Source: Paenibacillus sp. R14(2021)
GTDB lineage: Bacteria; Bacillota; Bacilli; Paenibacillales; Paenibacillaceae
Assembly (NCBI RefSeq): GCF_019431355.1
Contig: NZ_CP080269.1
Coordinates: forward strand, 5,715,001 to 5,779,000
Direction of reading: 5' to 3'
Length of the DNA: 64,000 bases
This document shows, in pieces, positions 9,148 through 26,790 of this stretch. How positions within the stretch are numbered: the first letter of the stretch is position 1; each line of letters begins with the position of its first letter. The position numbers were made by a program, and so were the translations under genes. The notes below the pieces were generated by a model. That model made no database searches, was not told the DNA's origin, and saw only the letters and a program-made list of their open reading frames with translations.

Positions 9148-9209
9148 CGTGTTGTGGGTGATATTTCCAGCTAATAGACAACCTGCTATACTAAATGGGA
9201 GGAATGCTT

Positions 9210-10267: not shown

Positions 10268-10333
10268 ATTCGAAATACGTAAATCCTCGGTTTGGTAGGA
10301 GTTATGTGAAGTGCGTAAATAGAACGTTAGGTG
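10268..10333 (+). other. Candidate attI site (simple L-R site at the head of the cassette array)
   Basis: GCGTAAATAGAAC followed by GTTAGGTG (10326-10333) matches the right half of the attC sites in this array (GTGAATACAAGAAC-GTTRRR), but no left half is present, as expected for attI. Upstream lie a related direct repeat (ACGTAAAT near 10278) and a second R-like box GTTATGTG at 10301. The first cassette begins at this G/TT junction. It sits between the integrase and the array. Confidence 0.6.
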
Positions 10334-10344
10334 AAATAATGTCT

Positions 10345-10769
10345 AAATGAAATTCTTCACCCCCGCACTTGTGAATCTCTCTTGGAGATTCACAAAATGC
10401 GGGTCTATCCAACTTGGAATAAGGGAATTTGAATGTTTTCTTTTTACTGGGAGGAAAAGCAAACACGATCGAAGAATTTCCTAATAAATGGTAACAAAAA
10501 CCAATCTCTCAAAAGACAAGGGATCGTTCTTTTAGTAGGGGTTAGGTGAAGAGGAAGCGCGCTTCTTAAGCGCATAACTCCTACTAAAAGAATAACGAAG
10601 GAAACGAAAGCTTGTCAAAGGCGAAAAGAGATTGGATTTTGTTGAAAAGCGTAGAAAAGGATGGAAATTCTTCGATATTCGGAATAGAACATATGTTTGC
10701 TTTTTATTTTGAAAGGGAAGAAAACATTCAAATGGGATAATAAGAAGTTGGATAGGAAGAATTTCATTT
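10345..10769. repeat. Nested long inverted repeat filling a gene-less integron cassette
   Basis: At least seven arm pairs are arranged symmetrically around ~10560-10580: 10345-10358 with 10756-10769 (14 bp), 10406-10415 with 10745-10754, 10427-10442 with 10718-10733 (16 bp), 10455-10464 with 10695-10704, 10468-10481 with 10663-10676 (14 bp), 10501-10509 with 10627-10635, and 10527-10539 with 10580-10592 (13 bp). A separate local hairpin (GTGAATCTC/GAGATTCAC) lies at 10371-10392. No convincing coding sequence exists in this cassette (10327-10969). Confidence 0.85.
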
Positions 10770-10825
10770 TCGAAGGAATCGAAAAGAAGAAAAAGCCAGT
10801 GGGGGTAACGCTTCGACCGCCATTA

Positions 10826-10978
10826 CATCACCTAACATCATATTACCGCTGCGGGGCATACGCCCTTGGTCTGCCCGAAGTTATTTCTACGAAGTAAATC
10901 AGGCAGACACATTGATCCCCCTAAGATAAGAGCTATCTAAGGGGGATCAACGTCGGTAATACAGGAACGTTAGACGAA
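10826..10978 (+). repeat. attC site 1
   Basis: R'' box ACCTAAC (10830-10836), L'' TATTACCG, central hairpin CCCCCTAAGATA/TATCTAAGGGGG, L' CGGTAATA, R' box GTTAGAC (10969-10975). The R'' complement GTTAGGTGA equals the start of its own cassette at 10326. Closes the gene-less first cassette. Confidence 0.9.
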
Positions 10979-11008
10979 AGCATTGATAAAATCTAAAGGA
11001 AGTGCTGA

Positions 11009-11785
11009 ATGAGTTGGTTTCTTTTTTCGTTATTTATTGCAATTTACATAGTCTTAGTCATTTTGAATTTTACTTGGTATTTGTCGAAGAATAAAAATAA
11101 GATTTTTTACTACACATTATCTCCTGTTAATTGGTTAGTTCAGTTTATTGTTTTAATGGTAGGTTTAGGGTTTAGGTCGAATTACATAGAGAACAACGAG
11201 TTGGTATTTAAAATAGTCTTTTTTCTTATTGTGTTTATACTTTCGATTCAAATAATGTTTTTTGTAGTTGTACTTGTTATAGAACTGACGAAATTCATTC
11301 AAGATGATTCTGATTTTAATAGGCTCATACCAAAATACCAGGGAATATCTCTAATTACTCTATTAGTATCCTTTTTAATAATGCCTTGTTTAATATTTGG
11401 GATGTTTTACGACCTATGGTTGGAATACGCTCACATAACCGATAAAGTAGTCATTGAACTGAGGATGTATGATTTTATTTATTTTGCCTTTGGTATAAAT
11501 TACTCCCTCCCGTTGAGCGGTGCACTTGAAGATTTTCAAAAAGTTGTGAATTTCGATTACTATTTAAGGTCATTGCAGTTTGTACACGTGATTTCCTCGA
11601 AGATTTTAGAATTGATTGTTATAGGCTTTATTATTTCTAAAGTAACTAAGCTTTTTGAGAAAGATAAAGGGGAATTTACTTTTTCCAATGAAATAAAGAA
11701 ATTAGATATTCAAAGGAATCAAAAGAAGATAACAAATGAACAGTATGAGAAGATAGTTCAATATTATATTGATCGATATTGTTAA
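11009..11785 (+). CDS. Multi-pass membrane protein, ion-channel-like, cassette-borne
   Basis: A 258-residue protein with about five hydrophobic segments: residues 1-25, ~40-58, ~70-95, ~118-145 and ~190-215. The stretch DFIYFAFGINYSLPLSG between the last two segments sits where a pore loop would be in two-TM potassium-channel domains, but no TxGYG filter is present. The charged tail (KDKGEFTFSNEIKKLDIQ) is probably cytosolic. RBS AAAGGAAG precedes the ATG. AT-rich compared with the core genes. It is the only gene of its cassette. Function unknown. Confidence 0.7.
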   Translation: MSWFLFSLFIAIYIVLVILNFTWYLSKNKNKIFYYTLSPVNWLVQFIVLMVGLGFRSNYIENNELVFKIVFFLIVFILSIQIMFFVVVLVIELTKFIQDDSDFNRLIPKYQGISLITLLVSFLIMPCLIFGMFYDLWLEYAHITDKVVIELRMYDFIYFAFGINYSLPLSGALEDFQKVVNFDYYLRSLQFVHVISSKILELIVIGFIISKVTKLFEKDKGEFTFSNEIKKLDIQRNQKKITNEQYEKIVQYYIDRYC

Positions 11786-11817
11786 AAAGTTTGGATGTGT
11801 TTCAAGAGGTCAATGCC

Positions 11818-11938
11818 TTCGTCTAACACAGCATTCATGCATCGGGCCTGATGGCCCTCGGTCCGAGGATGTATTTCGAGGAAGCAGGAGCAGCGGACAA
11901 CCCCTACGGGGTTCGTGAATGCAAGAACGTTAGTCGAA
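11818..11938 (+). repeat. attC site 2
   Basis: R'' GTCTAAC (11821-11827), R' GTTAGTC (11929-11935), GGGCC..GGCCC inner arm, L' GTGAATGC. The shortest site of the array (~120 bp). Its R'' complement GTTAGACGA equals the start of its own cassette at 10969. Confidence 0.9.
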
Positions 11939-12241
11939 ATTACTGAAGGGCTATTAAACCAAAAAAATTTACAAAACTTTATCTATTGGAATAGGGCAAT
12001 AAACTTGAATAGAATTTTCAGATACTTAATGATCTATGTGTTAGCTATATTCCCGACTTTTATAATGATGAATTTATTAATTGAAAAATATCCAAAAACA
12101 GGTTTAGGGAGGATCGTAGCTATTCCCTTTATTTTATTAGTTAATACATTGTTAATAATGGGAGGGATCTTAATTCAAGAGAAAACAAGACCCTTTCTAT
12201 ATATTTTTACATGGATTCTAATAATATTTTTAACGAAATAA
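11915..12241 (+). CDS. Small membrane protein whose reading frame opens inside attC 2
   Basis: Up to 108 residues with two to three hydrophobic segments (YLMIYVLAIFPTFIMMNLL, IVAIPFILLVNTLLIMGG, FLYIFTWILIIFL). The only early in-frame start is GTG 11915 in the L' box of the preceding attC; a TTG near 12005 would give a shorter form. Family not recognised. If GTG is used, the first ~8 residues are encoded by the recombination site. Single gene in the cassette apart from an overlapping fragment at 12211. Confidence 0.5.
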   Translation: MNARTLVEITEGLLNQKNLQNFIYWNRAINLNRIFRYLMIYVLAIFPTFIMMNLLIEKYPKTGLGRIVAIPFILLVNTLLIMGGILIQEKTRPFLYIFTWILIIFLTK

Positions 12242-12321
12242 TAACAGTTGAAGTCTATCCTCAGGAATATGGCCCGCCAGTTATTGAGCGAATTCTTAAT
12301 GAGTGGATTAAGAACAAATAA
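12211..12321 (+). CDS. Short overlapping frame, possible gene remnant
   Basis: 36 codons from ATG 12211 (MDSNNIFNEIITVEVYPQ... ending ILNEWIKNK). It overlaps the end of the membrane-protein frame by ~30 bp and runs on in another frame. The charged, protein-like tail suggests the C-terminus of a degraded or frameshifted gene, but there is no ribosome site. Low certainty. Confidence 0.25.
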   Translation: MDSNNIFNEIITVEVYPQEYGPPVIERILNEWIKNK

Positions 12322-12370
12322 ATTGAACAAGATCAAATATTTTTGAAAGCTATTCATGAGGGTCAGTAAC

Positions 12371-12540
12371 ATCGCCTAACATCGTATTCACGCTACGGGC
12401 TTACGCCCATGGTCCGGACCGATGCAGAAGTGCCGAGGGTAGATTCAGCCGGACAACTCCTGCGAGGCTAAGTCTGACGACCCGTTCCCTACGTTCAATT
12501 AAGCCTCTCGGGTTCGTGAATACACGAACGTTAGGCGAAA
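12371..12540 (+). repeat. attC site 3
   Basis: R'' GCCTAAC (12374-12380), L'' GTATTCACG, GTCCGG/CCGGAC arm, L' CGTGAATAC, R' GTTAGGC (12530-12536). Its central arm, GCGAGGCTAAGTCTGACGAC...TTAAGCCTCTCGGG, belongs to the class also seen in sites 7, 11 and 13. Its R'' has one mismatch to the start of its own cassette. Confidence 0.9.
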
Positions 12541-12614
12541 CTGGCTTAATTCCGAAAAAACATTAACAAAGCTTGTATAGAAATCAAGCAATATCAAAGA
12601 GGAGGCATCATAAT

Positions 12615-12938
12615 TTGAATGAGATTATTGCAGAATTTTTAAATGATGAAGTTGGTTGTCAAGACTTCTACGATTCTATTTATAATTTTATTGCCGACCA
12701 AAACATCAGAGCTGGTGAGTATGAAGGGAATATATTTGTAATAAAAAAAATGGACAGACTTAATTTTATTATCTTTAAGGAATATGTTTTTAGAGATAGT
12801 GGATTGAGAACAATACATAACTCTATAAGTTTATTCAGAAAGGATCTATTAAAAGCAGTGAATGAACATGCTGCTACTCAGGGATTTACGGTAAAGGGAT
12901 ACGGCGAAGAAAGTAATGATGTGATTACTTCATGGTAA
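12615..12938 (+). CDS. Hypothetical cassette protein
   Basis: 107 residues from TTG 12615, which has AGAGGAGG nine bases upstream; the longer frame from 12573 lacks such a site. Sequence features: acidic N-terminus (NEIIAEFLNDEVGCQDFYDSIYNFIADQ), a middle beta-like stretch (NIFVIKKMDRLNFIIFKEYVF) and no membrane segment. Soluble and AT-rich. I do not recognise the family. Confidence 0.7.
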   Translation: MNEIIAEFLNDEVGCQDFYDSIYNFIADQNIRAGEYEGNIFVIKKMDRLNFIIFKEYVFRDSGLRTIHNSISLFRKDLLKAVNEHAATQGFTVKGYGEESNDVITSW

Positions 12939-12985
12939 GAAATAAAAGACGATTAAAGATTTTTAGTAATTCATAGAAGAGCCAG

Positions 12986-13169
12986 CATCGCCTAACACCA
13001 TATTCACGCTTCGGGGCATTCGCCCCTCGGTCCGGCCGGGGTCTGATGAGGATTCGGGGATGCCATTGGCAGTTGCAGCGAAGCGTAATCAGCCGGACAC
13101 ATCCTTCCCCCTAAGATAAGAGCTATCTAAGGGGGAAGGACGTCGTGAATACACCAACGTTAGCCGAAA
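12986..13169 (+). repeat. attC site 4
   Basis: R'' GCCTAAC (12990-12996), L'' ATATTCACG, L' CGTGAATAC, R' GTTAGCC (13159-13165). Central hairpin CCCCCTAAGATA/TATCTAAGGGGG as in sites 1, 8 and 14. The R'' complement GTTAGGCGA equals the start of its own cassette at 12530. Confidence 0.92.
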
Positions 13170-13199
13170 GAAGTTCTTACATGTTTAGGAGGAGTCTAT

Positions 13200-13967
13200 A
13201 TGATATTAGAAAAAGTTATAAATAGAATTGTAATACAAAGTGAATATAAGGATTTTGTTGATAAGTATATAGATAATATACTTACCGAATTTAAAGGTAA
13301 AATTCATAGCATTTATATGTGTGGCTCGATTCCAAAAGGAACTGCTAAACCTTTTAAGTCAGATGCAGACTTTACTATTGTATGTGTAAATCCCAAAGAT
13401 ATTGATTACGAAAGATTGTCAAATATTAAAGACAGGCTTTTGGAAGAATATCCAGTGGTAACTAAGATTGATACGATAATTTGCTCGATTGACGATGTAT
13501 TAAGTAAACCGAATGAGTGGGGTTTTTGGATTAAGATAATTTGTGTTTGCATATATGGTCATGACGTTGGTGAAAAAGTGCCACCGATAATTACTTCTCC
13601 AGAGTTCATTTTAGACTTAAATACAGAGACCAAGGATGAAGTAGATCGTATACATAGTTTACTTTCTAATGCTAGTGATAACACAATGAAAACTAGATAT
13701 ATTAAAGGTTATTCTAAGAGATTAATTCGTGCATTATACTCTTTGGTTTTAGAAGATACAGGAGTATGGCAAGATGACATTATTAAGATGAAGAATGCCA
13801 TATTAGACTATTGCGAGATTGACTCCGCTTTAGTTGATTATCTGTATGCTTGTTACTTGGATAGTCATGTACTTGTTGAAGAGTTTCTGGGAATTGCAGA
13901 TGAAGTATATAGCTATTTTGAGAACGCCTTAAATACAATGGCTGCTTCCAGAACTTCCTTCGGCTAA
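13200..13967 (+). CDS. Nucleotidyltransferase-domain protein (pol beta fold, ANT-like)
   Basis: A 255-residue protein. The N-terminal half has the polymerase-beta nucleotidyltransferase signature CGSIPKGTAKPFKSDADFTIV (about residues 41-61), with the two metal-binding Asp residues, and a likely third acidic residue in TKIDTIICS. The C-terminal half is helical, as in aminoglycoside adenylyltransferases, so nucleotidyl transfer to a small molecule or protein is plausible; antibiotic resistance is not shown. RBS AGGAGG before ATG 13200. The TAA stop lies inside the R'' box of attC 5. Confidence 0.82.
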   Translation: MILEKVINRIVIQSEYKDFVDKYIDNILTEFKGKIHSIYMCGSIPKGTAKPFKSDADFTIVCVNPKDIDYERLSNIKDRLLEEYPVVTKIDTIICSIDDVLSKPNEWGFWIKIICVCIYGHDVGEKVPPIITSPEFILDLNTETKDEVDRIHSLLSNASDNTMKTRYIKGYSKRLIRALYSLVLEDTGVWQDDIIKMKNAILDYCEIDSALVDYLYACYLDSHVLVEEFLGIADEVYSYFENALNTMAASRTSFG

Positions 13968-14127
13968 CACCATATTGACGCTCGGGGTCACTCTGAGAAG
14001 CGAGTGACCACATCCAGCCCCCTAAGCCCGTCGGGACGTCACTGCATTAGGTGTTCGGCAAGCCTCACAACTATAAGCAGCGGCTCTAAGGGGCCAGGAC
14101 GTTGTCAATACAAAACGTTAGCCGAAA
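13958..14127 (+). repeat. attC site 5
   Basis: R'' GGCTAAC (13962-13968) includes the stop codon of the preceding gene. R' GTTAGCC (14117-14123). L'' ATATTGACG pairs with L' TTGTCAATAC: the T-to-G change in L'' is matched by a change in L', a compensatory substitution. The central arm is unlike the other sites. R'' complements the start of its own cassette over 10 bp. Confidence 0.92.
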
Positions 14128-14203
14128 CTTCCTAGGTCAAGAACGTATGGTTAAACTCTCTTAAACCAGAAGCATCTAAGATCAATTTCGGAAAAGGGCA
14201 TAT

Positions 14204-14395
14204 GAAGGGCATATGAAGGCAAGATCGGTTAAGGGCGTATGTCGATCAAGATCGGATAAGTGCATATGAAGGTCAAGTTCGGATAAGGGCATATAAAGGT
14301 CAAGTTCGGATAAGAGCATATGAAGATCAAGATAAGATAGGGGCATATGAAGGTCAAGATCGGATAAGAGCTTAAGAGAATCAAGAACATACTTG
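14204..14395 (+). repeat. 27-bp tandem repeats in a cassette without a gene
   Basis: About six to seven copies of a 26-27-bp unit (GGGCATATGAAGGTCAAGAT then CGGATAA) run head to tail and diverge at the edges. They fill the cassette 14118-14543, which has no credible gene. The unit length is a multiple of three, so both strands show accidental periodic frames. The spacing is zero, so this is not a CRISPR array. Confidence 0.85.
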
Positions 14396-14419
14396 GTGGG
14401 TAGCTCAGAGAAGAGGAAG

Positions 14420-14551
14420 CATCGGCTAACACCGCATTCACGCTTCGGGCATACGCCCTCGGTCCGGACCGAAGTTGCAAAGCCTGGAAGTGGATTCAGC
14501 CGGACACACCCGACATTCGTCGGGCGTCGAGAATTCAACAACGTTAGCAGA
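14420..14551 (+). repeat. attC site 6
   Basis: R'' GGCTAAC (14424-14430), L'' GCATTCACG, short central arm CCCGAC/GTCGGG, R' GTTAGCA (14543-14549). The R'' complement GTTAGCCGA equals the start of its own cassette at 14117, although it mismatches the adjacent R'. Confidence 0.92.
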
Positions 14552-14584
14552 AATTCCCTAAGCTTTAAAACAGGAGGGGCGCAA

Positions 14585-15319
14585 TTGAAATCAATTAAAG
14601 ATATTTCAATGACCGAGAATGCAATGATCGTTTCTTCAAATGACATATATGGCGAATTCTATACACATGCTGAAAGGCTGGTTCAATTTTCGTTTCATTT
14701 TTTAAAAACAGTTAAGCCCAATGCTCAAGTATTTGTTATCTTTTTATCCCAAGTGAACAAATCTTTAAGCTTATCACTCTTATCATCTCTTCGAAGACAT
14801 GATGTACAAGCCCAGCTGATGCTGAGACATGTTCTTGAATCCGCAGTGCTTGCTACCTACTCCTTATATGAAACAGATATAAATCAGTTCGCTTACATTG
14901 ATAACAATGATTATGCTCATGAAAGACCAGAAGTAAAGGTTAAAGCACATAACTGGCTAGAAGAAAATTATAGTATCTTCAATGACAAGATAAAATTCAT
15001 GAAAACCAAAGTCATAAATAAGAATACTGCACACGCTAATATTATAACTGCATTCAACAACTATGACTTCAGCAACGAAGAAAAATTCGTAACGACGTTA
15101 TTTGACCCCGATGATCCATTAATAATAAAACAGAGACTTTGGTGGATTGCAAATATCTCCTTTGGACTTTTAGATATGTTCTTTAGAATCTCAAAGAATA
15201 TTCCTATTATTAATGTTAATGATGATTTTGAGAAAACTATGTTTGAATTCGGAAGAGAAAATAAGAGACTAGAAGAAATATTAAGATCAGATGAAAGATT
15301 AGCAAGACATTTTGAGTAA
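14585..15319 (+). CDS. Hypothetical helical protein, possibly DUF5677-like
   Basis: 244 residues from TTG 14585, preceded by AGGAGGGG; the upstream extension runs through attC 6 and is not credible. Predicted mainly alpha-helical. The segment SLLSSLRRHDVQAQLMLRHVLESAVLATYSLYE resembles the Arg- and Glu-rich helices of DUF5677-type proteins, but I cannot confirm membership. No signal peptide. Ends LARHFE. Single gene in its cassette. Confidence 0.7.
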   Translation: MKSIKDISMTENAMIVSSNDIYGEFYTHAERLVQFSFHFLKTVKPNAQVFVIFLSQVNKSLSLSLLSSLRRHDVQAQLMLRHVLESAVLATYSLYETDINQFAYIDNNDYAHERPEVKVKAHNWLEENYSIFNDKIKFMKTKVINKNTAHANIITAFNNYDFSNEEKFVTTLFDPDDPLIIKQRLWWIANISFGLLDMFFRISKNIPIINVNDDFEKTMFEFGRENKRLEEILRSDERLARHFE

Positions 15320-15334
15320 TTCAAGAAGAGGGAA

Positions 15335-15505
15335 CATCTGCTAACACCGTATTCACGCTGCGGGCTTATGCCCTTGGTCCGGACCGAAGTTAAGAAGCCT
15401 GGTAGCAGATTCAGCCGGACAACCCTGCGAGCCTAAGTCTAACGACCCGTTCCCTTCGGTCACTTAAGGCTCTCGGGTTCGTGAATACAAGAACGTTATA
15501 CGCAA
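15335..15505 (+). repeat. attC site 7
   Basis: R'' TGCTAAC (15339-15345), L'' GTATTCACG, GTCCGGAC arm, GCGAGCCTAAGTC/TTAAGGCTCTCGG central arm, L' CGTGAATAC, R' GTTATAC (15495-15501). The R'' complement GTTAGCAGA matches its own cassette start at 14543 but not the neighbouring R'. Confidence 0.93.
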
Positions 15506-15537
15506 TTACTGCAATTCAAAGGGAGCTAGATTAGAAG

Positions 15538-16023
15538 ATGACTAAAGTGAAATATTATATCCCTTATGCGATATGGATAATTATTGTCTTAATACTAGTA
15601 GAGAATTCAATGTTAGATAAGAAATTTAGTTTAATTTCTTTTATTATTTATAGTTTTATTATTTCTTTTTCTTTGGAGGTTATTAGAAACAGATTATTAA
15701 ATAATGCCTATTCTATAAAGAAAACTAGATCAATTTTGTATTTTACTCTGAATTTTTTAATAGGAATGCCCCTATTCACCATAATTTATTTAGTCATGTT
15801 TCCAATAGAGTCAGTCACCCTAAACAATGAGACAGACTTTGATAGGTGGCAGCAATACTTAGCTTTAGGGTATTTTATGGTTTGGTTTTTAATAAATTCA
15901 GTTATTTTAAAGCCATCGAGGCTAAGAAATATTTTATTATTTATTATAAGTCCGCTAATTCTTGTGGTGTCTACGTTAATTCTCACTATTTTTCTTTCTA
16001 CATTTATTTCGTACTACTTTTAA
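15538..16023 (+). CDS. Small multi-pass membrane protein
   Basis: 161 residues with about five hydrophobic segments (YYIPYAIWIIIVLILV, FSLISFIIYSFIISF, ILYFTLNFLIGMPLFTIIYLV, YLALGYFMVWFLINSVIL, ILLFIISPLILVVSTLILTIFL). A short polar loop NNETDFDRWQQ lies before the fourth. RBS GGGAG is 10-15 bp upstream of ATG 15538. Family not recognised. Only gene of its cassette. Confidence 0.7.
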   Translation: MTKVKYYIPYAIWIIIVLILVENSMLDKKFSLISFIIYSFIISFSLEVIRNRLLNNAYSIKKTRSILYFTLNFLIGMPLFTIIYLVMFPIESVTLNNETDFDRWQQYLALGYFMVWFLINSVILKPSRLRNILLFIISPLILVVSTLILTIFLSTFISYYF

Positions 16024-16044
16024 GTTGATCGAAGAAGGCAGTAA

Positions 16045-16229
16045 CTGCGTATAACACCATATTCACGCATCGGGCCATTCGGCCCTTGGTCCGGACAGAA
16101 GTTAGAAGTGGATTCGGGGATGCCTTTGGCAGTAGCGAGGAAGCATTTTCAGCCGTACACATCCATTCCCCTAAGATAGGAGCTATCTATGGGGAATGGA
16201 CGTCGTGAATACAAGAACGTTAGGCGAAA
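16045..16229 (+). repeat. attC site 8
   Basis: R'' GTATAAC (16049-16055), L'' ATATTCACG, central hairpin CCCCTAAGATAGGAGCTATC of the site 1/4/14 class, L' CGTGAATAC, R' GTTAGGC (16219-16225). The R'' complement GTTATACGC matches its own cassette start at 15495 and mismatches the adjacent R'. Confidence 0.93.
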
Positions 16230-16269
16230 TATTGTGATAAGAAATTTATGAAGAAAAGGAATTAGACCC

Positions 16270-16764
16270 ATGGATCCAATCAGCAATGAAATCTCGTCTA
16301 AATTAATTACTAAGACACGAGAAGAATTTAAAAATATCAGTAAACATAAAAGAGTTAAAGTGCCAATTATTGATTTTGAGATCCTGGTATTTATAAATCA
16401 GCACGAGCTGGATGATGTCTTTGTTCTTGAAGATTATTTCAAATCACTGAATCATGAAGGCAAGTATCCAATGTTTACTTGTTCATGTGGTATCTTTGGA
16501 TGCGGTGGCTTTTATGTTCATGTAACACACTCTAAAGACTATATTACTTGGAGAACCGACCACTCACCTTTTAAGGACATTGAGATAAGATCGGCAAACC
16601 TTTTTAAATTTACATGGAAAGAAATGATTAGATTTTCAGAAGAATTAATTAATCAGTTAAATGAAATAAATGAAATTTATATCTCAAAGGGTCTAAAGAA
16701 CCCTTTTGATTTAAAAGATTTTTGCAAAGAAATCAAATTAATGAAGAAAGAAAAGCATTTTTAG
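16270..16764 (+). CDS. Hypothetical protein with a CSCGIFGCGG motif
   Basis: 164 residues, soluble. The central FTCSCGIFGCGGFYVHVTHS is a compact Cys/Gly motif that may bind metal and that I associate with uncharacterised bacterial proteins. It is followed by TWRTDHSP and a helical, Lys-rich C-terminus. ATG 16270 is preceded by AAAAGGAAT. Function unknown. Single gene of its cassette. Confidence 0.72.
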   Translation: MDPISNEISSKLITKTREEFKNISKHKRVKVPIIDFEILVFINQHELDDVFVLEDYFKSLNHEGKYPMFTCSCGIFGCGGFYVHVTHSKDYITWRTDHSPFKDIEIRSANLFKFTWKEMIRFSEELINQLNEINEIYISKGLKNPFDLKDFCKEIKLMKKEKHF

Positions 16765-16789
16765 TAAGTGATTCTATGTAGTCACAATA

Positions 16790-16981
16790 CTTCGCCTAAC
16801 ATCATATTCACGCTTCGGGCCATCCGGCCCTCGGTCCGGCAGAGGATTTTCGGAGAAGCGAGAGCAGCCGGACACATCTGCAAGACTAATCTCGCTTTGC
16901 GAAACGGTGTGATGGATGGCTTCGCCGATCCACAAGTCCCTTTAGTCTTTCGACGTCTGAATACAGCAACGTTATACGACA
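16790..16981 (+). repeat. attC site 9
   Basis: R'' GCCTAAC (16794-16800), L'' ATATTCACG, GTCCGGC/GCCGGAC arm, a long central arm starting CTGCAAGACTAATCTCG and ending AGTCTTTCGACG (class shared with site 15), R' GTTATAC (16971-16977). The R'' complement GTTAGGCGAA matches its own cassette start at 16219. Confidence 0.93.
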
Positions 16982-17008
16982 TGTCTGTTTAATCAAGGAG
17001 AAGAATTA

Positions 17009-17488
17009 ATGAATAGATCAAACAAAAAACTAAATCAATTTCTTGATGGAATGGGGAAGTATAAGTTCCATGAACACACTGAACTAATAAATATTGTTTG
17101 GCCTACTTTTATTGAAGTAGAAGGTTGCATTTTGCTTCAGAATGATTTGAAACCAGATAGAACTATAAATATTGAGTTTGTTTTAAAGCAATTTGGGGAT
17201 CGATCAGGATTCGAAGCTTCGGAAAGCCATGTACATATGATTGATGTATCTAGCTTTTTTATTAAGCAGCCCTTGGAAGGCTTAAGATTTGCAATGAAAT
17301 TAGTGGATATGTGGGTAGTAAAGCTTAAACTAGATTTTCCTGATTATAGTTTTTTGATTATTCTAAGTTTTGATGGTGGAGACAGTATTATTCGGTTTCA
17401 TCGTATTAGAGAAGATGAAGAACCTTGGATTAATATTGAAAGAATAGATGAGTACAAGGATGAAGGAATATCAATTCGGATAGTTTAG
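17009..17488 (+). CDS. Hypothetical cassette protein
   Basis: 159 residues, soluble, mixed alpha/beta. It opens MNRSNKKLNQFLDGMGKYKFHEH, has a hydrophobic core LDFPDYSFLIILSFDGGDSI, and ends in an acidic tail (REDEEPWINIERIDEYKDEG). RBS AAGGAG before ATG 17009. No recognised family. Lies in the cassette whose attC is split by an insertion sequence. Confidence 0.7.
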   Translation: MNRSNKKLNQFLDGMGKYKFHEHTELINIVWPTFIEVEGCILLQNDLKPDRTINIEFVLKQFGDRSGFEASESHVHMIDVSSFFIKQPLEGLRFAMKLVDMWVVKLKLDFPDYSFLIILSFDGGDSIIRFHRIREDEEPWINIERIDEYKDEGISIRIV

Positions 17489-17504
17489 TCGAAGATGTCA
17501 GACA

Positions 17505-17650
17505 CGTCGTATAACACCATATTCACGCATCGGGCCATCCGGCCCTCGGTCCGGCAGAGGGATTTCAGGGGAGCTGGAGGAGCCGGACAACCCTGCACTG
17601 GCTAAGTCTGACGACCCGGGCTGGTGCCCTTAAGCCAGTGAGGGTTCGTG
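17505..17650 (+). repeat. attC site 10, left part (interrupted by an insertion sequence)
   Basis: R'' GTATAAC (17509-17515), L'' ATATTCACG, central arm CTGCACTGGCTAAGTC...TTAAGCCAGTGAGG (class of site 12), then the L' box is broken after GTTCGTG. The right part AATACAAGAACGTTATCT resumes at 19148. The R'' complement GTTATACGAC matches its own cassette start at 16971. Confidence 0.92.
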
Positions 17651-17752
17651 AATTATGATGACGAGGCCAGCTCCTAATTGTACAACGTAGGTTATAGAGG
17701 TGTTTATGGACAAACTACTCTACAGAGCTACAACAAAAAGGAGCTGGTTAAT

Positions 17753-18874
17753 ATGAATAATGCCACAAAATATATCGGGATGGATGTCTCGAAGGAAACC
17801 ATCGCTGTTGCAATCGCTGAATCCGGAAGAGAAGAACCGCGGTTCTGGGGAACCATTCCGCACAAACCAGAGGCTGTGAGGAAGTTGTTGAAGCAGCTAG
17901 GGGAGAAAGAACAATTGGAAGTCTGCTATGAAGCTGGACCAACGGGTTATGAATTGTATCGATGGCTAACGAGCATGGGGGTCAGCTGTATCGTGGTGGC
18001 ACCGTCGCTCATACCTAAACGCGCAGGAGACCGTGTAAAAACAGACCGCAGAGATGCATTGCGACTGGCTCAATTGTTTAGAGCTGGTGAACTTACAAGT
18101 GTCTATGTGCCGGATCGGGATACGGAGGCACTGCGGGATTTAGTACGAGCTAGGGAAGATGCAAAAGAAGATCTACACCGTGCAAGACAACGCATGGTGA
18201 AATTCTTGTTGCGCCATCAAATCCATCAACCCGTGCATTTGAAAAAACGATGGACGAAGAGTTACAAGAAGTGGCTAGGCGCATTGAAATTCGAGCGCAC
18301 AGCGGAGCATTATGTATTCCAGGACTACCTCCATGTGGTCTTAGAGAGTGAACACCGGTTAGAGCGGTTGGAAAACGAAATTGAACGGGAGAGTACAACG
18401 GCGCCGCAAGCGGAGGTGATTCAAGCAGTGCAGGCACTTCGGGGTGTGGGACTCGTAACAGCAGTAACCCTAGTAGCAGAAATCGGGAGTTTCGCAAGGT
18501 TTCGAAATCCACAGCAGCTAATGGCGTATGCGGGTATCGTGCCACAAGAACGATCGAGTGGGGATTCAAGCTGGCGAGGACGAATCACGAAGTCTGGAAA
18601 TGCGCATATACGGCGGGTGGTAACCGAAGCGGCATGGCAGTACCGCCACCGGCCGGCAATGACGGAGAGAATGCAGGTAAAAAACCAAAAGCAAGAGCCA
18701 GCCGTACAAGCGATAGCATGGAAAGCCCAGCATCGGTTGCATGGGCGGTATTTTCGACTTATTGTGCAACGAGGCAAGCAAAAATGTGTAGCAGCAACAG
18801 CAATAGCCAGAGAATTGTTAGGGTTTATCTGGGCGATTGCCCGGGAAGTGGAACAGACCCGAGCCGTTGGTTAA
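17753..18874 (+). CDS. IS110/IS1111 family transposase
   Basis: 373 residues. The N-terminal RuvC-like DEDD domain shows IGMDVSKETIAVAI (first Asp), CYEAGPTGYELYRWL (Glu) and VKTDRRDALRLAQLF (Asp pair). The C-terminal Tnp domain shows LRGVGLVTAVTLVAEIGSFARF, AYAGIVPQE and a Ser in SGDSSWRGRITKSGN. ATG 17753 is preceded by AAGGAG. Intact by eye. It catalyses insertion guided by an element-encoded RNA. Confidence 0.93.
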   Translation: MNNATKYIGMDVSKETIAVAIAESGREEPRFWGTIPHKPEAVRKLLKQLGEKEQLEVCYEAGPTGYELYRWLTSMGVSCIVVAPSLIPKRAGDRVKTDRRDALRLAQLFRAGELTSVYVPDRDTEALRDLVRAREDAKEDLHRARQRMVKFLLRHQIHQPVHLKKRWTKSYKKWLGALKFERTAEHYVFQDYLHVVLESEHRLERLENEIERESTTAPQAEVIQAVQALRGVGLVTAVTLVAEIGSFARFRNPQQLMAYAGIVPQERSSGDSSWRGRITKSGNAHIRRVVTEAAWQYRHRPAMTERMQVKNQKQEPAVQAIAWKAQHRLHGRYFRLIVQRGKQKCVAATAIARELLGFIWAIAREVEQTRAVG

Positions 18875-19147
18875 AAGCAAACGTGATGTAAACCAAGGAA
18901 GAAAAGGAAAAAGCTGAATTCCTGGGCCCGAAGGCAACGCGAGAGAGGGAATGGATTCGCGTCTTGTATTTGCATTAGCCCTAAGGGTAAACATGCGTCG
19001 TGAGTTAGCGAACAGATTCTCAGACGGTCGGATAAAATGTGGTAACCAACCCACGGATATCAGTGTGCCAACTGTCGAGTTGACTGTTGCCTTCGCGCCG
19101 AGGAATTCAGTGAAAATAAAGGGGGGCTAGACAAGCCTCGTCATATC
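18875..19147 (+). ncRNA. Likely guide (bridge/seek) RNA region of the IS1111-type element
   Basis: 273 bp of non-coding sequence between the transposase stop and the right end. In IS1111-group elements the guide RNA is encoded here. If so, part of it should complement the attC 10 target around GTTCGTGAATACAAG. I have not folded it; the call rests on position and family knowledge. Confidence 0.45.
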
Positions 19148-19168
19148 AATACAAGAACGTTATCTGCA
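19148..19168 (+). repeat. attC site 10, right part
   Basis: AATACAAGAAC then R' GTTATCT (19159-19165). It completes the site broken at 17650 and marks the start of the next cassette. Confidence 0.88.
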
Positions 19169-19329
19169 AGATCTGCCCCGAAAGAATTTATAAAAGTGAC
19201 ACATCAACAACGTCCTGTTGCTCGCAGCCAAATATGAAGCTATAAAACCGTAAGGGCTATAAGATAGTAAGGGCTATAAGGTCGTAAAGAACTTTTAAAA
19301 CATAATCCTATCAAATTGGAGGAAGAATT

Positions 19330-19800
19330 TTGGGATATATTCAGGATCTCAGAAAATTAGTAGGAACAAGGCCAATAATAATGGCAGGAGCTTGTGTATT
19401 ATTATTTGATAATCAAAATCGATTACTCTTACAAAGAAGAACTGATAATGGTTTGTGGGGTTCCCCTGGTGGTGCATTAGAGCCTGGTGAAAAAATGGAA
19501 GAAGTAGCTATGAGAGGACTATATGAAGAAACAGGCTTGATTGCAGAGCGACTACATTTATTTGATGTATTTTCCGGTAACGAATTATATTATAGGTACC
19601 CACATGGTGATGAAGTATTTAATTTAGTAACAGTCTATATTTGCAAAGAATATAAAGGAACATTAAGATCAGACGGAATTGAAACAAAGGAAGTGAAGTT
19701 TTTTGATCTCTGGAATATTCCGAAAGATCTTAGTCCACCTGAAATTCCAGTAATAAACAAATTATTGAAAGAAAAAATGGGATCATTAAATCAGAAGTAA
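19330..19800 (+). CDS. Nudix hydrolase (first of three in the array and its border)
   Basis: 156 residues. Nudix box GGALEPGEKMEEVAMRGLYEETGL at about residues 46-69. The usual RE-U-xEE is RGLYEE here: the first Glu is replaced by Gly, while the EE pair that usually binds metal is kept. Flanking strands MAGACVLLFDNQNRLLLQRR and a C-terminal FFDLWNIP fit the fold. Starts at TTG 19330 with GGAGG upstream. Members hydrolyse nucleoside diphosphates linked to other moieties. ~170 bp of non-coding sequence precede it in the cassette. Confidence 0.88.
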   Translation: MGYIQDLRKLVGTRPIIMAGACVLLFDNQNRLLLQRRTDNGLWGSPGGALEPGEKMEEVAMRGLYEETGLIAERLHLFDVFSGNELYYRYPHGDEVFNLVTVYICKEYKGTLRSDGIETKEVKFFDLWNIPKDLSPPEIPVINKLLKEKMGSLNQK

Positions 19801-19817
19801 CTCGAGGAAGGCCCCGA

Positions 19818-19988
19818 CAGCATATAACACCATATTCACGCATCGAGGCATTCGCCCTCGGTCCGGTCCGAGGATATTCGAGGAAGCGGAAGCAGCCGGA
19901 CAACCACTGCGGGCCTAAGTCTGACGACCCGTTCCCTAACGGTCATTTAAGGCTCTCGGGTTCGTGAATACACCAACGTTATGTGAAA
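19818..19988 (+). repeat. attC site 11
   Basis: R'' ATATAAC (19822-19828), L'' ATATTCACG, central arm GCGGGCCTAAGTCTGACG...TTAAGGCTCTCGGG, L' CGTGAATAC, R' GTTATGT (19978-19984). One mismatch between R'' and its own cassette start (GTTATCTGC). Confidence 0.9.
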
Positions 19989-20062
19989 GATCGGCAAGTC
20001 AATATAAAAGTACATTCGAATCATGCGTAGTATTTCATGACTCAATAATAAGGAGAAGATTG

Positions 20063-20521
20063 ATGGATTACATTAAGTGGATAAGAAGTAAGGTAGGTAG
20101 TGAAATGATAATCCTAAACTTTTCTGGAGCGATTATTACGAATGAAGAAGGACAAATATTGTTGCAACGGAGAAGGGATAAGAATGCATGGGGCTTTCCT
20201 GGGGGAGCTATGGAAATAGGGGAATCCGCTGAAGAGACAGCAATTCGTGAAGTACAAGAAGAAACAAGCTTAATCATATCTATTGAGAATTTAATTGGGG
20301 TATACACGAAGTACTTTGATAAATACCCAAATGGGGATCAAGCACAGACAATTGCATTCTTTTATAAGGGATGCATTTCCGATGGGGAATTAATTAGCTG
20401 TAATGAAGAAAGTCTAGAACTTAAATTCTTTAACCCTGAAGAAGTACCAGAATTATTTAATCAGCAACATGATGATGCATTTACCGATTTTATTAATAAG
20501 AGAACGGGAGTATATAGATAA
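20063..20521 (+). CDS. Nudix hydrolase
   Basis: 152 residues. Intact Nudix box GGAMEIGESAEETAIREVQEETSL, with the catalytic REVQEE. The upstream strands IILNFSGAIITNEEGQILLQRRR and downstream LKFFNPEEVPELF are typical. ATG 20063 follows AAGGAGAAG. It shares clear similarity in layout with the neighbouring Nudix cassette gene at 19330 but is diverged, so it is not a recent duplicate. Confidence 0.9.
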   Translation: MDYIKWIRSKVGSEMIILNFSGAIITNEEGQILLQRRRDKNAWGFPGGAMEIGESAEETAIREVQEETSLIISIENLIGVYTKYFDKYPNGDQAQTIAFFYKGCISDGELISCNEESLELKFFNPEEVPELFNQQHDDAFTDFINKRTGVYR

Positions 20522-20565
20522 TCGGAAAATCAGAATTTTAAGAGCTGATTCAAAGATGGCCGATC

Positions 20566-20723
20566 CATCACATAACACCTCATTTACGCGGCGGGCTGAC
20601 GGAGGGAATTCGAGGAAGAGGAATTAGGCAGACAACCCTGCACTGGCTAAGTCCGTCGGACCCGGCTCCCGTTGGTCGCCTTAAGCCAGTGAGGGTTCGT
20701 GAATGCAAGAACGTTATGTGAAA
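20566..20723 (+). repeat. attC site 12
   Basis: R'' ACATAAC (20570-20576), L'' TCATTTACG, central arm CTGCACTGGCTAAGTC...TTAAGCCAGTGAGG, L' CGTGAATGC, R' GTTATGT (20713-20719). Its left inner arm is shortened (the GGTCCGG segment is missing). The R'' complement GTTATGTGA matches its own cassette start. Confidence 0.9.
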
Positions 20724-20743
20724 TGCGAAGTGAAAGGATAAAA

Positions 20744-21194
20744 ATGATGAGAGATGAATTATTAAACAATTATTTTTATCGAGATGGAAGCCTTCGAGAT
20801 ATATATACTACGAACCCATTATTCTGATTGGGATTTGTTATTGGACTATGTCAGATCAAACCCTGATTTTGAAATATTTATTTTCAAAGATGGAGAAGAA
20901 GTACATGAGAAACTAAGTATTATAGAAATATTAAAACTTAAAGATGATTTTTCAATGGTCGTTCATATCGAATATAAAGGTATTTCTATTTCCGGCTATT
21001 TCTATGAGGCTGACAACATTGAGTTTGACATTTCACCTAAAGAAATTATAAGTCTTGAAGAAGTAGATAAAGTAATTCAGTTTATGAAGGAGATTGCTAT
21101 GTTTATTAACAAGGAAGTTATTTTAACACCAGAAATGGATATGAAAGAAGTATACATAAGAGTACTTTCTACAGGAGAAACAATATTTATGTAA
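20744..21194 (+). pseudogene. Hypothetical protein gene, frameshifted at an AT dinucleotide run
   Basis: ATG 20744 (or 20747), with AAAGGA upstream, opens a frame MRDELLNNYFYRDGSLRDIYTT that stops at ~20826. In the +1 frame the sequence continues as IYILRTHYSDWDLLLDYVRS to TAA 21194. The two join naturally (SLRDIYILRTHY) if two bases (AT) were restored in the (AT)4 run at 20799-20806. The alternative is that the real start is ATG 20784, which lacks a ribosome site. Family unknown. The mutation could be loss of function or slippage-based switching. Confidence 0.62.
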
Positions 21195-21209
21195 GTAGCT
21201 CAGGAGCAC

Positions 21210-21380
21210 TTCACATAACAGCGTATTCATGCTGCGGGCTTACGCCCTTGGTCCCGGACCGTTGTAAAAGTGCCGAGGGTAACTCAGCCGGACAACCACT
21301 GCGAGCCTAAGTCTAATGACCCGTTCCCTACGGGTCAATTAAGGCTTTCGGGTCCATGAATACAAGAAAGTTATCTGAAA
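21210..21380 (+). repeat. attC site 13
   Basis: R'' ACATAAC (21213-21219), L'' GTATTCATG paired with L' CATGAATAC: the C-to-T change in L'' is compensated by G-to-A in L'. Central arm GCGAGCCTAAGTC...TTAAGGCTTTCGG. R' GTTATCT (21370-21376). R'' matches its own cassette start GTTATGTGAA. Confidence 0.92.
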
Positions 21381-21418
21381 TTCAGCAAACTAAATTATGA
21401 GTCTAGGAGATACAAAAT

Positions 21419-21931
21419 ATGAAATCAATAATCGGTAAGGTGCGTTTTCTTTCCGTAAAGGAAGGAGGTCAAAGTAAATTACCTAAAGAAATGCTCAGTA
21501 CACCAATTATATTTAAAGATGATATTGACCAAGAATTTGGCCTATGGAGTATGAATATGTACTTGATTACTGATTTTGATGAGAATAGAGAGGCGATCGT
21601 ACGTTTCGAATTTTTATTCAATAACTCCTCGGAAGCGCCTCATCAGTTACTTTATGTAGGAAGTAAATTTAATTTAATAACTAACAGAGTAATGGCAAAT
21701 TGTATAGTAACTAATATTGTTGATGAAGAAGAAGGGGAATGGTTTTGTCCCGCTGTTGAGAGAGTAATTAGTGAGGGACTATGTTGGGAATATTGTTTTG
21801 CCAATAATGGCGGTCCGACTGATACTGCTCAAGAACTAGACTTATGGATTCGAAATACAAAGAAATATAAAAGTATAGAAGAATTCCAAATGGTTTGTGA
21901 TAAATGTAAACATTGTCAGTGGTCAAGATAG
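21419..21931 (+). CDS. Hypothetical protein, possibly an EF-Tu beta-barrel-like domain
   Basis: 170 residues, mostly beta. The opening IIGKVRFLSVKEGGQ and mid-part AIVRFEFLFNN resemble stand-alone EF-Tu C-terminal-like domain proteins (KVRFLxxxEGGR), but this is weak. The C-terminus has MVCDKCKHCQWSR, a Cys cluster that may bind metal. RBS AGGAGA before ATG 21419. Single gene in its cassette. Confidence 0.7.
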   Translation: MKSIIGKVRFLSVKEGGQSKLPKEMLSTPIIFKDDIDQEFGLWSMNMYLITDFDENREAIVRFEFLFNNSSEAPHQLLYVGSKFNLITNRVMANCIVTNIVDEEEGEWFCPAVERVISEGLCWEYCFANNGGPTDTAQELDLWIRNTKKYKSIEEFQMVCDKCKHCQWSR

Positions 21932-21968
21932 AATAAAGAATTTGTGAGTATATCATGGAAGTGCTGAA

Positions 21969-22104
21969 CTTCAGATAATACCGTATTCGCGCTTCGGGCT
22001 GACGCCCTCGGTCCAGCAGAGGCATTTCGGGGAAGTGGAAGCAGCCGGACACATCGATCCCCCTAAGATAAGAGCTATTTAAAAGGGATCAACGTCGGTA
22101 ATAC
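21969..22104 (+). repeat. attC site 14, right terminus eroded
   Basis: R'' AGATAAT (21973-21979), L'' GTATTCGCG, central CCCCCTAAGATAAGAGCTAT, and then CAACGTCGGTAATACAG, identical to the end of attC 1. The R' box is missing: CAGTAAATAAGAGC follows directly. L'' and L' no longer pair well, so the site looks like a hybrid. R'' matches its own cassette start GTTATCTGAA except the last base. Confidence 0.8.
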
Positions 22105-22130
22105 AGTAAATAAGAGCGTGGAGGTTCTAA

Positions 22131-22637
22131 ATGATTGAAATTCAGTTTCAATATGTTGGATTTTGGAAACGGTTGATAATTACATTTATTGAGATGCTAG
22201 TTATGTCAATACCGTTAACGATAATATACAGACTATCTGTATATTTAGCTGAAGCCCTTGGCTATGGTCCAATTTCCTTAATTCACTGGCTTGTTTTTTT
22301 TATCTTTGATATAACGCTCTTGGTTAAATTTGGTGGAACACTTGGGAAACTAATATTTAAGATAAGGGTAGTCAATAGAAATGGGAAATATTTGAATGTT
22401 AAGCAAGCTTTAACTAGATATATTTTTATACTAGCTTATGGAGTCATACTCTCGGTTGAAGAATATTTTTCATACCTGAATGTTGAGGCGCCAGATGTAA
22501 TAACTCAAATTTCATTATTTTATGGTTTAGTTTTTATCATTGATTCATTTACTATTATTTTTAACAATAAAAAAAGAGCTATTCATGATTTTATGGCTGG
22601 ATCATATGTAGTGACGAAGAAGAGCTTAGATATTTAG
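22131..22637 (+). CDS. RDD family membrane protein
   Basis: 168 residues with about four TM segments. RDD hallmarks: FWKRLIITFIEM near the N-terminus, GGTLGKLIFKIRVVNRNGK in the middle, and KKRAIHDFMAGSYVV at the C-terminus. RDD proteins are small integral membrane proteins, some linked to ion transport. ATG 22131 follows GTGGAGG. The leading part of the cassette has been shortened by loss of the preceding R' box. Confidence 0.88.
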   Translation: MIEIQFQYVGFWKRLIITFIEMLVMSIPLTIIYRLSVYLAEALGYGPISLIHWLVFFIFDITLLVKFGGTLGKLIFKIRVVNRNGKYLNVKQALTRYIFILAYGVILSVEEYFSYLNVEAPDVITQISLFYGLVFIIDSFTIIFNNKKRAIHDFMAGSYVVTKKSLDI

Positions 22638-22668
22638 ATTCATCTTCTTGGAAATGAAGGGCATATAA

Positions 22669-22890
22669 CTTCGCCTAACACCATATTCACGCTTCGGGGC
22701 ACTCGCCGCTCGGACCGTCCGGTGTCCGATGTGAATTCGAGGAAGCCATTGGCAGAAGCGAGGAAGCGGGAGCAGCCGGACACATCTGCAAGACTAATCT
22801 CGTTGTGCGAACCGGTGTTATGGAAGGCTAGCCGGTCCGATCCTCCCTTAAGTCTTTCGACGTCATGAACACAAAAACGGTATCTGAAAG
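22669..22890 (+). repeat. attC site 15
   Basis: R'' GCCTAAC (22673-22679), L'' ATATTCACG, long CTGCAAGACTAATCTCG...AAGTCTTTCGACG arm as in site 9, L' CATGAACAC, degenerate R' GGTATCT (T to G at the second base, ~22879). At ~220 bp it is the longest site. Confidence 0.85.
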
Positions 22891-22929
22891 AGTCAAATTT
22901 CGAATTATTAACCATAAAGGGCGATAATA

Positions 22930-23378
22930 ATGATATTTCGTGGAACTCAAGCTATTATTATTTGGTCGATTATTCATATTGTTGTCATAATAATTAGTTT
23001 TACTTTTATAAATATGTTTTCGGGAATAGTTTTTAGTATTTTACTTTTTTGTTTTTTAGTATATGGATATTCATCTAAAATTCTGATTATTGAATCAAAG
23101 ATAAGGACAGATTCTCTCTTTAAGAGAAGAGAAATTGATATAAGTGAGATAAAATTTATTGAGCAATTACAGAAAAAAAGGCTGGATACATTTATATAAG
23201 GCTAGGAAAAACTAATACAGAGGACTATTACATTCTTCATTTGAAGAATAAAGAAAAAGTTAAAGTAAATGCCTATTTAAAGCATAAAGGGATAAGCTTA
23301 GGGCGACATTTAAAGTATGTTCATAAAATTCAGTTTAAGGAATCAGATAAGATTAAATACGTTTACGGAAATCCTTGA
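22930..23378 (+). pseudogene. Membrane protein gene frameshifted in a poly-A run
   Basis: The frame from ATG 22930 encodes two TM segments (IIIWSIIHIVVIIISFTFI, IVFSILLFCFLVYGY) and then a soluble part, SSKILIIESKIRTDSLFKRREIDISEIKFIEQLQKK, before TAA 23199. One extra A in the A7 run at 23173-23179 would continue it as KKAGYIYIRLGKTNTEDYYILHLKNKEK to TGA 23378. The architecture, two TM plus a PH-like beta domain, suggests a bacterial PH-domain protein. The cassette also lost the left half of its attC. Confidence 0.7.
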
Positions 23379-23490
23379 GGCAGGAGTCCGTTGTGGGTCA
23401 AGCCGGGCACATCCCTCCAACTAATCGTATCGCGGCCGCCCCTTCGGGGCTTAAGTGGTAGGACATCGTGAAAACAAGAACGTTAGCTGA
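23379..23490 (+). repeat. attC site 16, right half only
   Basis: Begins near GGCAGGAGTCCG directly at the end of the broken gene. It has AGCCGGGCAC, a central arm CTCCAACTAATCG...CTTAAGTGGTAGGAC, L' CGTGAAAAC and R' GTTAGCT (23482-23488). R'' and L'' are deleted. Confidence 0.82.
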
Positions 23491-23527
23491 AATTACTGCA
23501 AATGAAGAGATAATTGAGGTGAAGGGA

Positions 23528-24189
23528 ATGGAGATTAAAATAATCTCTGACTTGGAATATGCAGTGTCAGGAGTATCTATTAAAGATGCAGCAACACAAA
23601 GATACTGTGTATTTGATTTCGAATCTACAGGGATAAATCATGAGACAGAATATATTACACAAATAGGCGCTGTAATTATTGAAAATGGTTGTATTCAGGA
23701 AGCCAAGACCTTTAATTCTTTTATTAAACCACCCAAACAGATTCCAGAAGCAGTTGAGAGATTCACAGGCATTTATAATAGCTATTTAATGAATGCCCCA
23801 GTTCTAAAGGGCGTTTATAACGATTTTTTAGTATTCATTAAAGATACTGTTTTAATTACGCACGCGGGATATGAATTTGATTTACCTATTTTACTTAATG
23901 AATGCAAGAGAAACAACCTCCCAATGATTACGAATTCTTGCTTAGATACAAAAGCTCTATTTTCGTATTTGTACCCGGAAGTTAAAGATATTATTTGGAC
24001 AGATTATTTAATTAAGTACTATAACATTCAAGATAATGATTTAAAAAGACATGATGCATTAGCGACAGTATATTAATTGGACGGATTTTTTTAAGCATAT
24101 TAGACGAATTCAAGACTAGAAACATAAATGACATAGAATTTATAGACCAAGTGATAGTAAAGCGATTTCAGATAAAACCCTTAGTGTGA
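23528..24189 (+). pseudogene. DEDDh 3'-5' exonuclease (DnaQ-like), frameshifted near its C-terminus
   Basis: From ATG 23528 (RBS GAAGGGA): YCVFDFESTGINHETEYITQIGAV with the first Asp/Glu pair, HAGYEFDLPILLNECKR, and KRHDALAT. The frame stops at 24076 (TATTAA). Removing two bases (TA near 24070) continues as ALATVLIGRIFLSILDEFK to TGA 24189, the expected length. The last catalytic Asp of HxxxxD appears as Thr (HDALAT), so even a repaired protein may be inactive. A longer frame opens at GTG 23468 inside the attC. Confidence 0.78.
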
Positions 24190-24210
24190 ATTGTTCTAAG
24201 AAAGGCAGTA

Positions 24211-24257
24211 ACATCAGCTAACACCGCATTCACGCATTGGGCCTGATGCCCTCGGTC
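24211..24257 (+). repeat. attC site 17, left half only (end of the intact array)
   Basis: R'' AGCTAAC (24216-24222) complements its own cassette start GTTAGCTGA. Then L'' GCATTCACG and GGGCC..GCCCTCGGTCC, after which the homology stops abruptly. Confidence 0.88.
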
Positions 24258-26608: not shown

Positions 26609-26628
26609 CATCACATAACATCGTATTG
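26609..26628 (+). repeat. attC left-end remnant
   Basis: CATCACATAACATCGTATT: R'' ACATAAC (26613-26619) and the beginning of L''. Homology stops at 26628, where an unrelated coding tail begins. Confidence 0.75.
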
Positions 26629-26724
26629 AGCTTGAAATCTTGAATTTAGTAAAACCTGTTTTCGAGATAATGAATGATCAGAAAGAACGATTTGAAAACC
26701 ATTGGCAGACAAGGACAGAAGCTT
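26629..26724 (+). pseudogene. C-terminal fragment of an unidentified gene
   Basis: An open frame without a start, reading ILNLVKPVFEIMNDQKERF then ENHWQTRTEA and a TAA at ~26724, begins exactly where the attC remnant ends. It looks like the tail of a protein whose front was removed by the same deletion. Confidence 0.4.
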
Positions 26725-26734
26725 AAAGTGACAA

Positions 26735-26790
26735 ACGCGTCTAGCACTGTAATATGGCAGCGGGCTTGCGCCCTGGATCCGACCTCTTTA
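26735..26790 (+). repeat. Degenerate attC left half
   Basis: GCGTCTAGCACTGTAATATGG then GCAGCGGGCTTGCGCCCTGG aligns with the TCTAACACCGTATTCACGC and TGCGGGCTTACGCCCTTGG parts of the array's attC sites. The R'' AAC is mutated (AGC). Confidence 0.6.

Follow-up and report, generated by a model that had tools for sequence, protein, structure and literature searches.

A chromosomal cassette array in Paenibacillus, headed by a broken Xer-like recombinase, points to an integron lineage distinct from that of IntI

The stretch analysed here, 64,000 nucleotides from the chromosome of Paenibacillus sp. R14(2021) (the window; G000:C1:5715001-5779000, where G000 is the 5.98 Mb, single-contig genome of this strain), carries an integron-type array of about 17 gene cassettes, with an attI-like site at its head and a broken tyrosine recombinase gene just upstream. 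Below, G-numbers denote genomes, L-numbers denote fetched loci, and the family is Paenibacillaceae (295 genomes). The features are:

9195..10181, plus strand, broken tyrosine recombinase, putative integron integrase relic, 328 aa open frame (TIGR02249 match)
9204..9452, plus strand, N-terminal HARP/UvsW/XPB-like domain of the integrase
10308..10332, plus strand, attI-like site (motif near GAAGTNCNTAAATNAGAN followed by GTTA, common to related loci)
10326..24257, plus strand, cassette array, about 17 cassettes (sites and own-start covariation)
10830..10975, plus strand, attC (strict caller and fold)
11821..11935, plus strand, attC (strict caller and fold)
12374..12536, plus strand, attC (strict caller and fold)
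12990..13165, plus strand, attC (strict caller and fold)
13159..14116, plus strand, cassette with nucleotidyltransferase-domain gene (copy in G003)
13962..14123, plus strand, attC (strict caller and fold)
14424..14549, plus strand, attC (less strict caller and fold)
15339..15501, plus strand, attC (strict caller and fold)
16049..16225, plus strand, attC (strict caller and fold)
16794..16977, plus strand, attC, predicted fold leaves arms unpaired (less strict caller and fold)
17509..19165, plus strand, attC split by an IS1111/IS110-type element (about 17654-19147) into halves 17509-17653 and 19148-19165
17753..18874, plus strand, IS110-family transposase in the split attC (PF02371 and PF01548)
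19822..19984, plus strand, attC (strict caller and fold)
20570..20719, plus strand, attC (less strict caller and fold)
21213..21376, plus strand, attC (less strict caller and fold)
21973..22107, plus strand, eroded attC without R' (by eye; R'' complements own start 8/9)
22673..22888, plus strand, eroded attC with altered R' (by eye)
23390..23488, plus strand, eroded attC, R'' side gone (by eye)
24216..24257, plus strand, truncated attC, R' side gone (by eye; R'' complements own start 9/9)
26617..26780, plus strand, attC relics past the given array end (by eye)

Calls on the plus strand of the window number twelve attC sites, none of them outside 10.8-21.4 kb; one more was called on the minus strand, overlapping the start of the first cassette. 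A stricter generic caller returned eight in the same stretch and none elsewhere in the window, and two matches over 20 shuffles of the window. Five further sites are split or eroded, one being cut by an insertion sequence and four, read by eye, being eroded; 12 called, one split and four eroded sites therefore give about 17 cassettes, the number proposed in a sequence-only reading made before this analysis. Site relics, again by eye, run on to about 26.78 kb, past the array end given in that reading. Four NUDIX-domain genes lie in or just after the array (19330-19797, 20063-20518, 24294-24716 and 26114-26575), and one cassette carries a 27-base unit repeated six times (14205-14368).

With DNA parameters, the arms of the bottom strand pair in 11 of the 12 window sites, the top strand is the less stable of the two in 10 of the 12, and the fold z scores range from -1.6 to -8.5 against shuffles of two-base blocks, which are not exact dinucleotide shuffles. 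Folding of slightly longer stretches with RNA parameters favours the bottom strand in 8 of 11 cases. Of 194 sites of this type, 120 have an extrahelical base followed by a pair on the L' side and 57 have one on the other side, about 48 being expected by chance. The bottom strands are thus predicted to fold with extrahelical bases, a property on which the sequence-only reading had made its array depend.

The cassette boundaries were examined through the 15 window cassettes with both ends readable, over nine bases. R'' complements all nine first bases of its own cassette start in 12 of the 15, with one mismatch in the other three, which reproduces to the digit the count of the sequence-only reading; R' of the same site fits exactly in only 3 of 13. 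Across 200,000 permutations the mean number of exact own-start matches is 1.33 and the maximum 8, and none reached the observed 12, so R'' does fit its own start better than the starts of other cassettes. In 20 related arrays, 177 cassettes give 1055 matched own-start bases as compared with a maximum of 832 in 2000 permutations, and 35 cassettes of G003 score 217 as compared with a permutation maximum of 177. Such covariation is a prediction of excision and integration as circles, because in the free circle R'' would fold against the start of its own cassette.

Whole units also recur. Among 231 cassettes compared (median 746 bp), several are found whole in other contexts, and copies of exact length occur in differing surroundings. 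The window cassette at 13159-14116 matches a G003 cassette at 99.2% identity with 958/958 bases covered; its left flank is unrelated (63%, random level) and the next cassette is related. An 815-bp cassette occurs at two places in G003, with both flanks near random level, and further cassettes are common to more than one genome. At the level of sequence, the array, the attI-like site, the exact cassette boundaries and the own-start covariation are established, and the genuine array claimed by the sequence-only reading is confirmed by site calls, covariation and folding.

The first cassette starts at the GTT of the attI-like site, at 10326. A second GTTAGGTGAA, at 10543, tied as the script's top candidate for this start; 10326 was preferred because it fits the attI motif. 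The predicted start of cassette 1 lies 79-200 bp past the integrase stop in 16 of 20 related loci, and GAA at -18, within the motif near GAAGTNCNTAAATNAGAN, is present in 14 of these 16 and in the window (10308-10326). Of the remaining four, L104 yielded no row in this analysis, and L109, L114 and L120 lack a candidate start in that position. By position and by pattern in the 16 loci and the window, we take this site to be attI.

The recombinase gene precedes the first cassette on the cassette strand, with 144 bases between the end of its frame and the cassette. Its 328 codons encode about 95 residues of N-terminal extension, then a SAM-like domain and one half of a catalytic domain. Nothing else in the genome matches TIGR02249 better, but the match covers only positions 4-180, plus 281-314 in a separate frame. 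The gene is intact through the first catalytic arginine and the lysine; beyond these, the stretch bearing the second catalytic arginine box is missing and the frame changes, and the tyrosine box is on a tail that is read in a different frame, at about 10097-10213. Among the tyrosine recombinase places listed for G000, it is the only one within 20 kb of an attC place from the 19-base probe search described below. Since the integrase gene is broken, the array in this genome is probably static now, unless served from elsewhere. The integrase heading the largest array fetched from the genus (G003, L011-L013, 40 called attC sites) also appears broken (L013/L009). The G003 recombinase at L010 was considered as half of an integrase and set aside; it precedes an apparent IS91-type transposase.

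Intact relatives exist, as evidenced by frames of at least 375 residues holding the integrase match at 27 of 30 loci. Matches at E 1e-40 or better are found in 83 of the 295 family genomes, that of the window included, and from these we hand-chose 20 loci for large contigs, five of which (G007, G017, G032, G059, G097) already had known attC places nearby. In every one of the 20, the gene is followed by same-strand attC sites (215 in total, 2 to 19 per locus), with none upstream in the 2-4 kb covered and two on the opposite strand. No LexA-type box was found upstream of the integrase in 21 loci. The search of related genomes with the attC consensus, as the sequence-only reading had suggested, returned an 18-base probe match in 204 of the 295 family genomes, about 130 of them matching at least five times (hand count), as compared with 34 genomes (hand count), never more than two matches per genome, for a control pattern. 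A 19-base probe matches 9 of 22 genus genomes, the control 2. That reading had missed the integrase next door, its difference from IntI and how common the sites are.

Across the phylum, the integrase is matched at E 1e-60 in 25 of 398 genomes, 22 of them outside the family. Sixteen of these loci were fetched; 15 have room downstream and eight have at least two coherent sites. The eight comprise N-extended integrases at L324, L325 (its gene interrupted by a stop), L329 and L331, partial frames at L326 and L328, and integrases without the extension at L332 and L333. At L333 (G415) the attC array follows an integrase that apparently also lacks the IntI domain and sits on another tree branch. Bacteroidota relatives lie ahead of attC-like sites in Rufibacter, Seonamhaeicola, Algibacter, Winogradskyella and one metagenome-assembled genome (L172), where the match is limited to residues 112-369. 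Own-start pairing there is 185 versus 131 over 33 cassettes, with a distance filter applied, in five loci chosen because sites had already been seen in them. The wider contig scan took the best 80 matches, with no Paenibacillaceae among them. The attC caller flagged five of these loci, with L138, L139 and L172 on the integrase strand and several attC-like calls opposite in strand to the matched recombinase at L142 and L178; L144 and L146 were added on inspection.

On the Chryseobacterium plasmid NZ_CP041688.1 (L210), a relative of the integrase stands ahead of small genes, an IS110 transposase and a group II intron. Plasmids of Cohnella herbarum and Paenibacillus crassostreae have partial attC matches, covering 54% and 20% of the query. 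Viral contigs yielded no integrase relative in a scan for close relatives, and one window attC used as query found no match in phages.

The integrase family differs from IntI in its domains. When aligned with IntI4 (2a3v), its members have 27 residues opposite 69 of IntI, a gap at the location of the IntI-specific domain, which the intact relatives lack. That additional domain is called defining of integron integrases in PMC9668308. R226, K251, H316, R319, H342 and Y351 are invariant in 18 aligned relatives (alignment A1; 12 of the 30 loci were dropped), and the window copy lacks part of these residues. Five intact members resemble XerA-type recombinases in that NF040815 matches them in one stretch, continuous over the SAM-like and catalytic domains, at 199-223 bits (cut-off 220); the model, however, does not cover their HARP-like domain. 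TIGR02249 matches the same five in two stretches, below cut-off.

The N-terminal domain of the intact relatives appears to resemble HARP/UvsW/XPB domains, as judged from a wider alignment and the fold. Alignments A7 and A6, which share no sequence, match at a probability of 98.3 and E 1.5e-14. HARP was not found by PDB profile with N-domains of Paenibacillaceae only, or by single-sequence Pfam scans of the 18 whole integrases; the putative likeness to HARP (PF07443) is drawn from the wider alignment and the fold. By eye, the N-terminal parts at L133, L135 and L138 seem to hold the HARP-like domain twice in tandem.

In trees of 78 and 91 sequences, 23 IntI form a clade with 100/100 support and 18 Paenibacillaceae integrases fall in another; in the larger tree, the latter group with further Bacillota members, with 93/97 support. 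The first tree received 26 of the 83 IntI loci fetched (80 and 3) and leaves out L233, L238, L288 and L154 (stops), L005 having given no frame; the second leaves out L003, L006, L172 and L182.

We consider the window to hold, with a probability of about 0.84, a chromosomal integron of a lineage distinct from IntI integrons, run by a HARP-fused, Xer-like tyrosine recombinase and degraded in this genome. We infer that the neighbouring recombinase family is the cassette-moving enzyme because it is linked to the arrays, has attI beside it and occurs where no IntI is over cut-off. In such a system, the recombinase would be encoded just upstream of attI on the cassette strand, would recognise the folded bottom strand of attC, presumably through its N-terminal domain, would cut at G^TT, as the cassette boundaries imply, and would move cassettes as circles between attC and attI.

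The alternative that survives best is that the array is a cluster of attC sites lacking integron-integrases (CALIN), on which a canonical IntI once acted in trans or has since been lost, with the neighbouring recombinase unrelated. The sites do resemble classical attC, a few Firmicutes CALINs are listed with IntegronFinder 2.0 (PMC9024848), and some arrays have no such recombinase nearby, such as the second small attC cluster of this genome, at G000:C1:726-730 kb (L291), in the 20 kb fetched around it. However, TIGR02249 is over cut-off in 0 of the 295 family genomes (best 7 candidates scored for the genomes listed, and no match over cut-off anywhere in that search), and in a separate positive control the same model gives 507 bits with the IntI1 of R388. 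Considering also that every one of the 20 fetched recombinase loci precedes an array, 16 with an attI-like junction, and that, of the recombinase places listed for G000, only that of the window lies within 20 kb of an attC place, we regard this explanation as unlikely.

The cassettes could in principle be moved by host XerC/XerD or another housekeeping recombinase. Enzymes of the Xer type are widely present, and the integrase family is nearest to the XerA-type model. Xer proteins, however, act in dimer resolution at dif and are not known to have an attC array; a dedicated recombinase and an attI-like site head the fetched arrays, and in the trees the integrase family branches far from the other tyrosine recombinases of G000 that were placed (three in the first, one in the second), making this explanation very improbable. 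That the sites are ordinary dispersed palindromes of the repetitive extragenic palindromic or miniature inverted-repeat transposable element type, lying between genes by chance, is scarcely credible, since, although they are imperfect palindromes of one sequence type, this is contradicted by own-start pairing beyond all permutations, recurrence of whole units, their single strand and the attI-like site at one end.

The integron with a HARP-fused, Xer-like integrase shares with canonical integrons (IntI; class 1, the Vibrio superintegron) the R and L boxes of attC with an extrahelical base, cassette starts at GTT, an attI-like site by the integrase, one-gene cassettes head to tail and own-start covariation. 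It differs from these in that its integrase has no IntI-specific domain, lies outside the IntI clade, has an additional domain at its N-terminus and reads into the array. In the latter respect it is like the integrons of Spirochaetota, which are described as generally of reverse orientation in PMC9668308; their enzymes are called IntIs there.

The IS110/IS1111-type element in the split attC occurs twice in G000, at about 17654-19147 of the window and at about 10.2-11.7 kb of L291 (G000:C1:718001-738000). The two copies, the only ones found, are 96.4% identical and interrupt the L' arm of attC at one and the same position in separate arrays, which suggests that the element targets attC. ISKpn4 and ISPst6 are IS1111 elements that target attC according to PMC11187229. 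The element here is like those in its IS110-family transposase, long downstream non-coding part, subterminal inverted repeats and insertion in attC; unlike them, it sits in a Bacillota array, at one L' arm point, twice in one genome.

A Paenibacillaceae-type spore former as host fits a Spo0A match of 409 bits, over cut-off, and a 23S segment with 94-96% identity to Paenibacillus records and 89% to Priestia, in line with the Gram-positive spore former named by the sequence-only reading. Its remark that large arrays are known mainly from Gram-negative phyla agrees with the IntegronFinder 2.0 report (PMC9024848), which describes Firmicutes integrons as very rare, with one complete integron (Limnochorda pilosa) and few CALINs. 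A full-text literature search, covering mainly open-access journal articles and no preprints, turned up neither this integrase nor a description of Bacillota arrays as common.

These observations are best read as a second integron lineage in Bacillota and, from few loci, in Bacteroidota, with HARP-fused, Xer-like integrases. It seems somewhat probable, further, that integron integrases are of two kinds on separate branches, the second being formed by these enzymes (Bacillota and Bacteroidota, plus one member each in Spirochaetota and Undinarchaeota), in which a branched-DNA-binding domain replaces the IntI-specific domain and reads folded attC DNA, and that surveys, by searching for IntI, have overlooked the majority of integrons in these phyla. 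Integrons have been held to be nearly absent from Firmicutes, yet the attC probe matches most genomes of one family, in which no IntI scored above cut-off. Should the neighbouring enzyme be the integrase, integron recombination would not depend on the IntI-specific domain, and a comparison of two separate solutions would allow tests of how integrases read a folded single strand. Gram-positive bacteria would then also offer a large reservoir of mobile cassettes.

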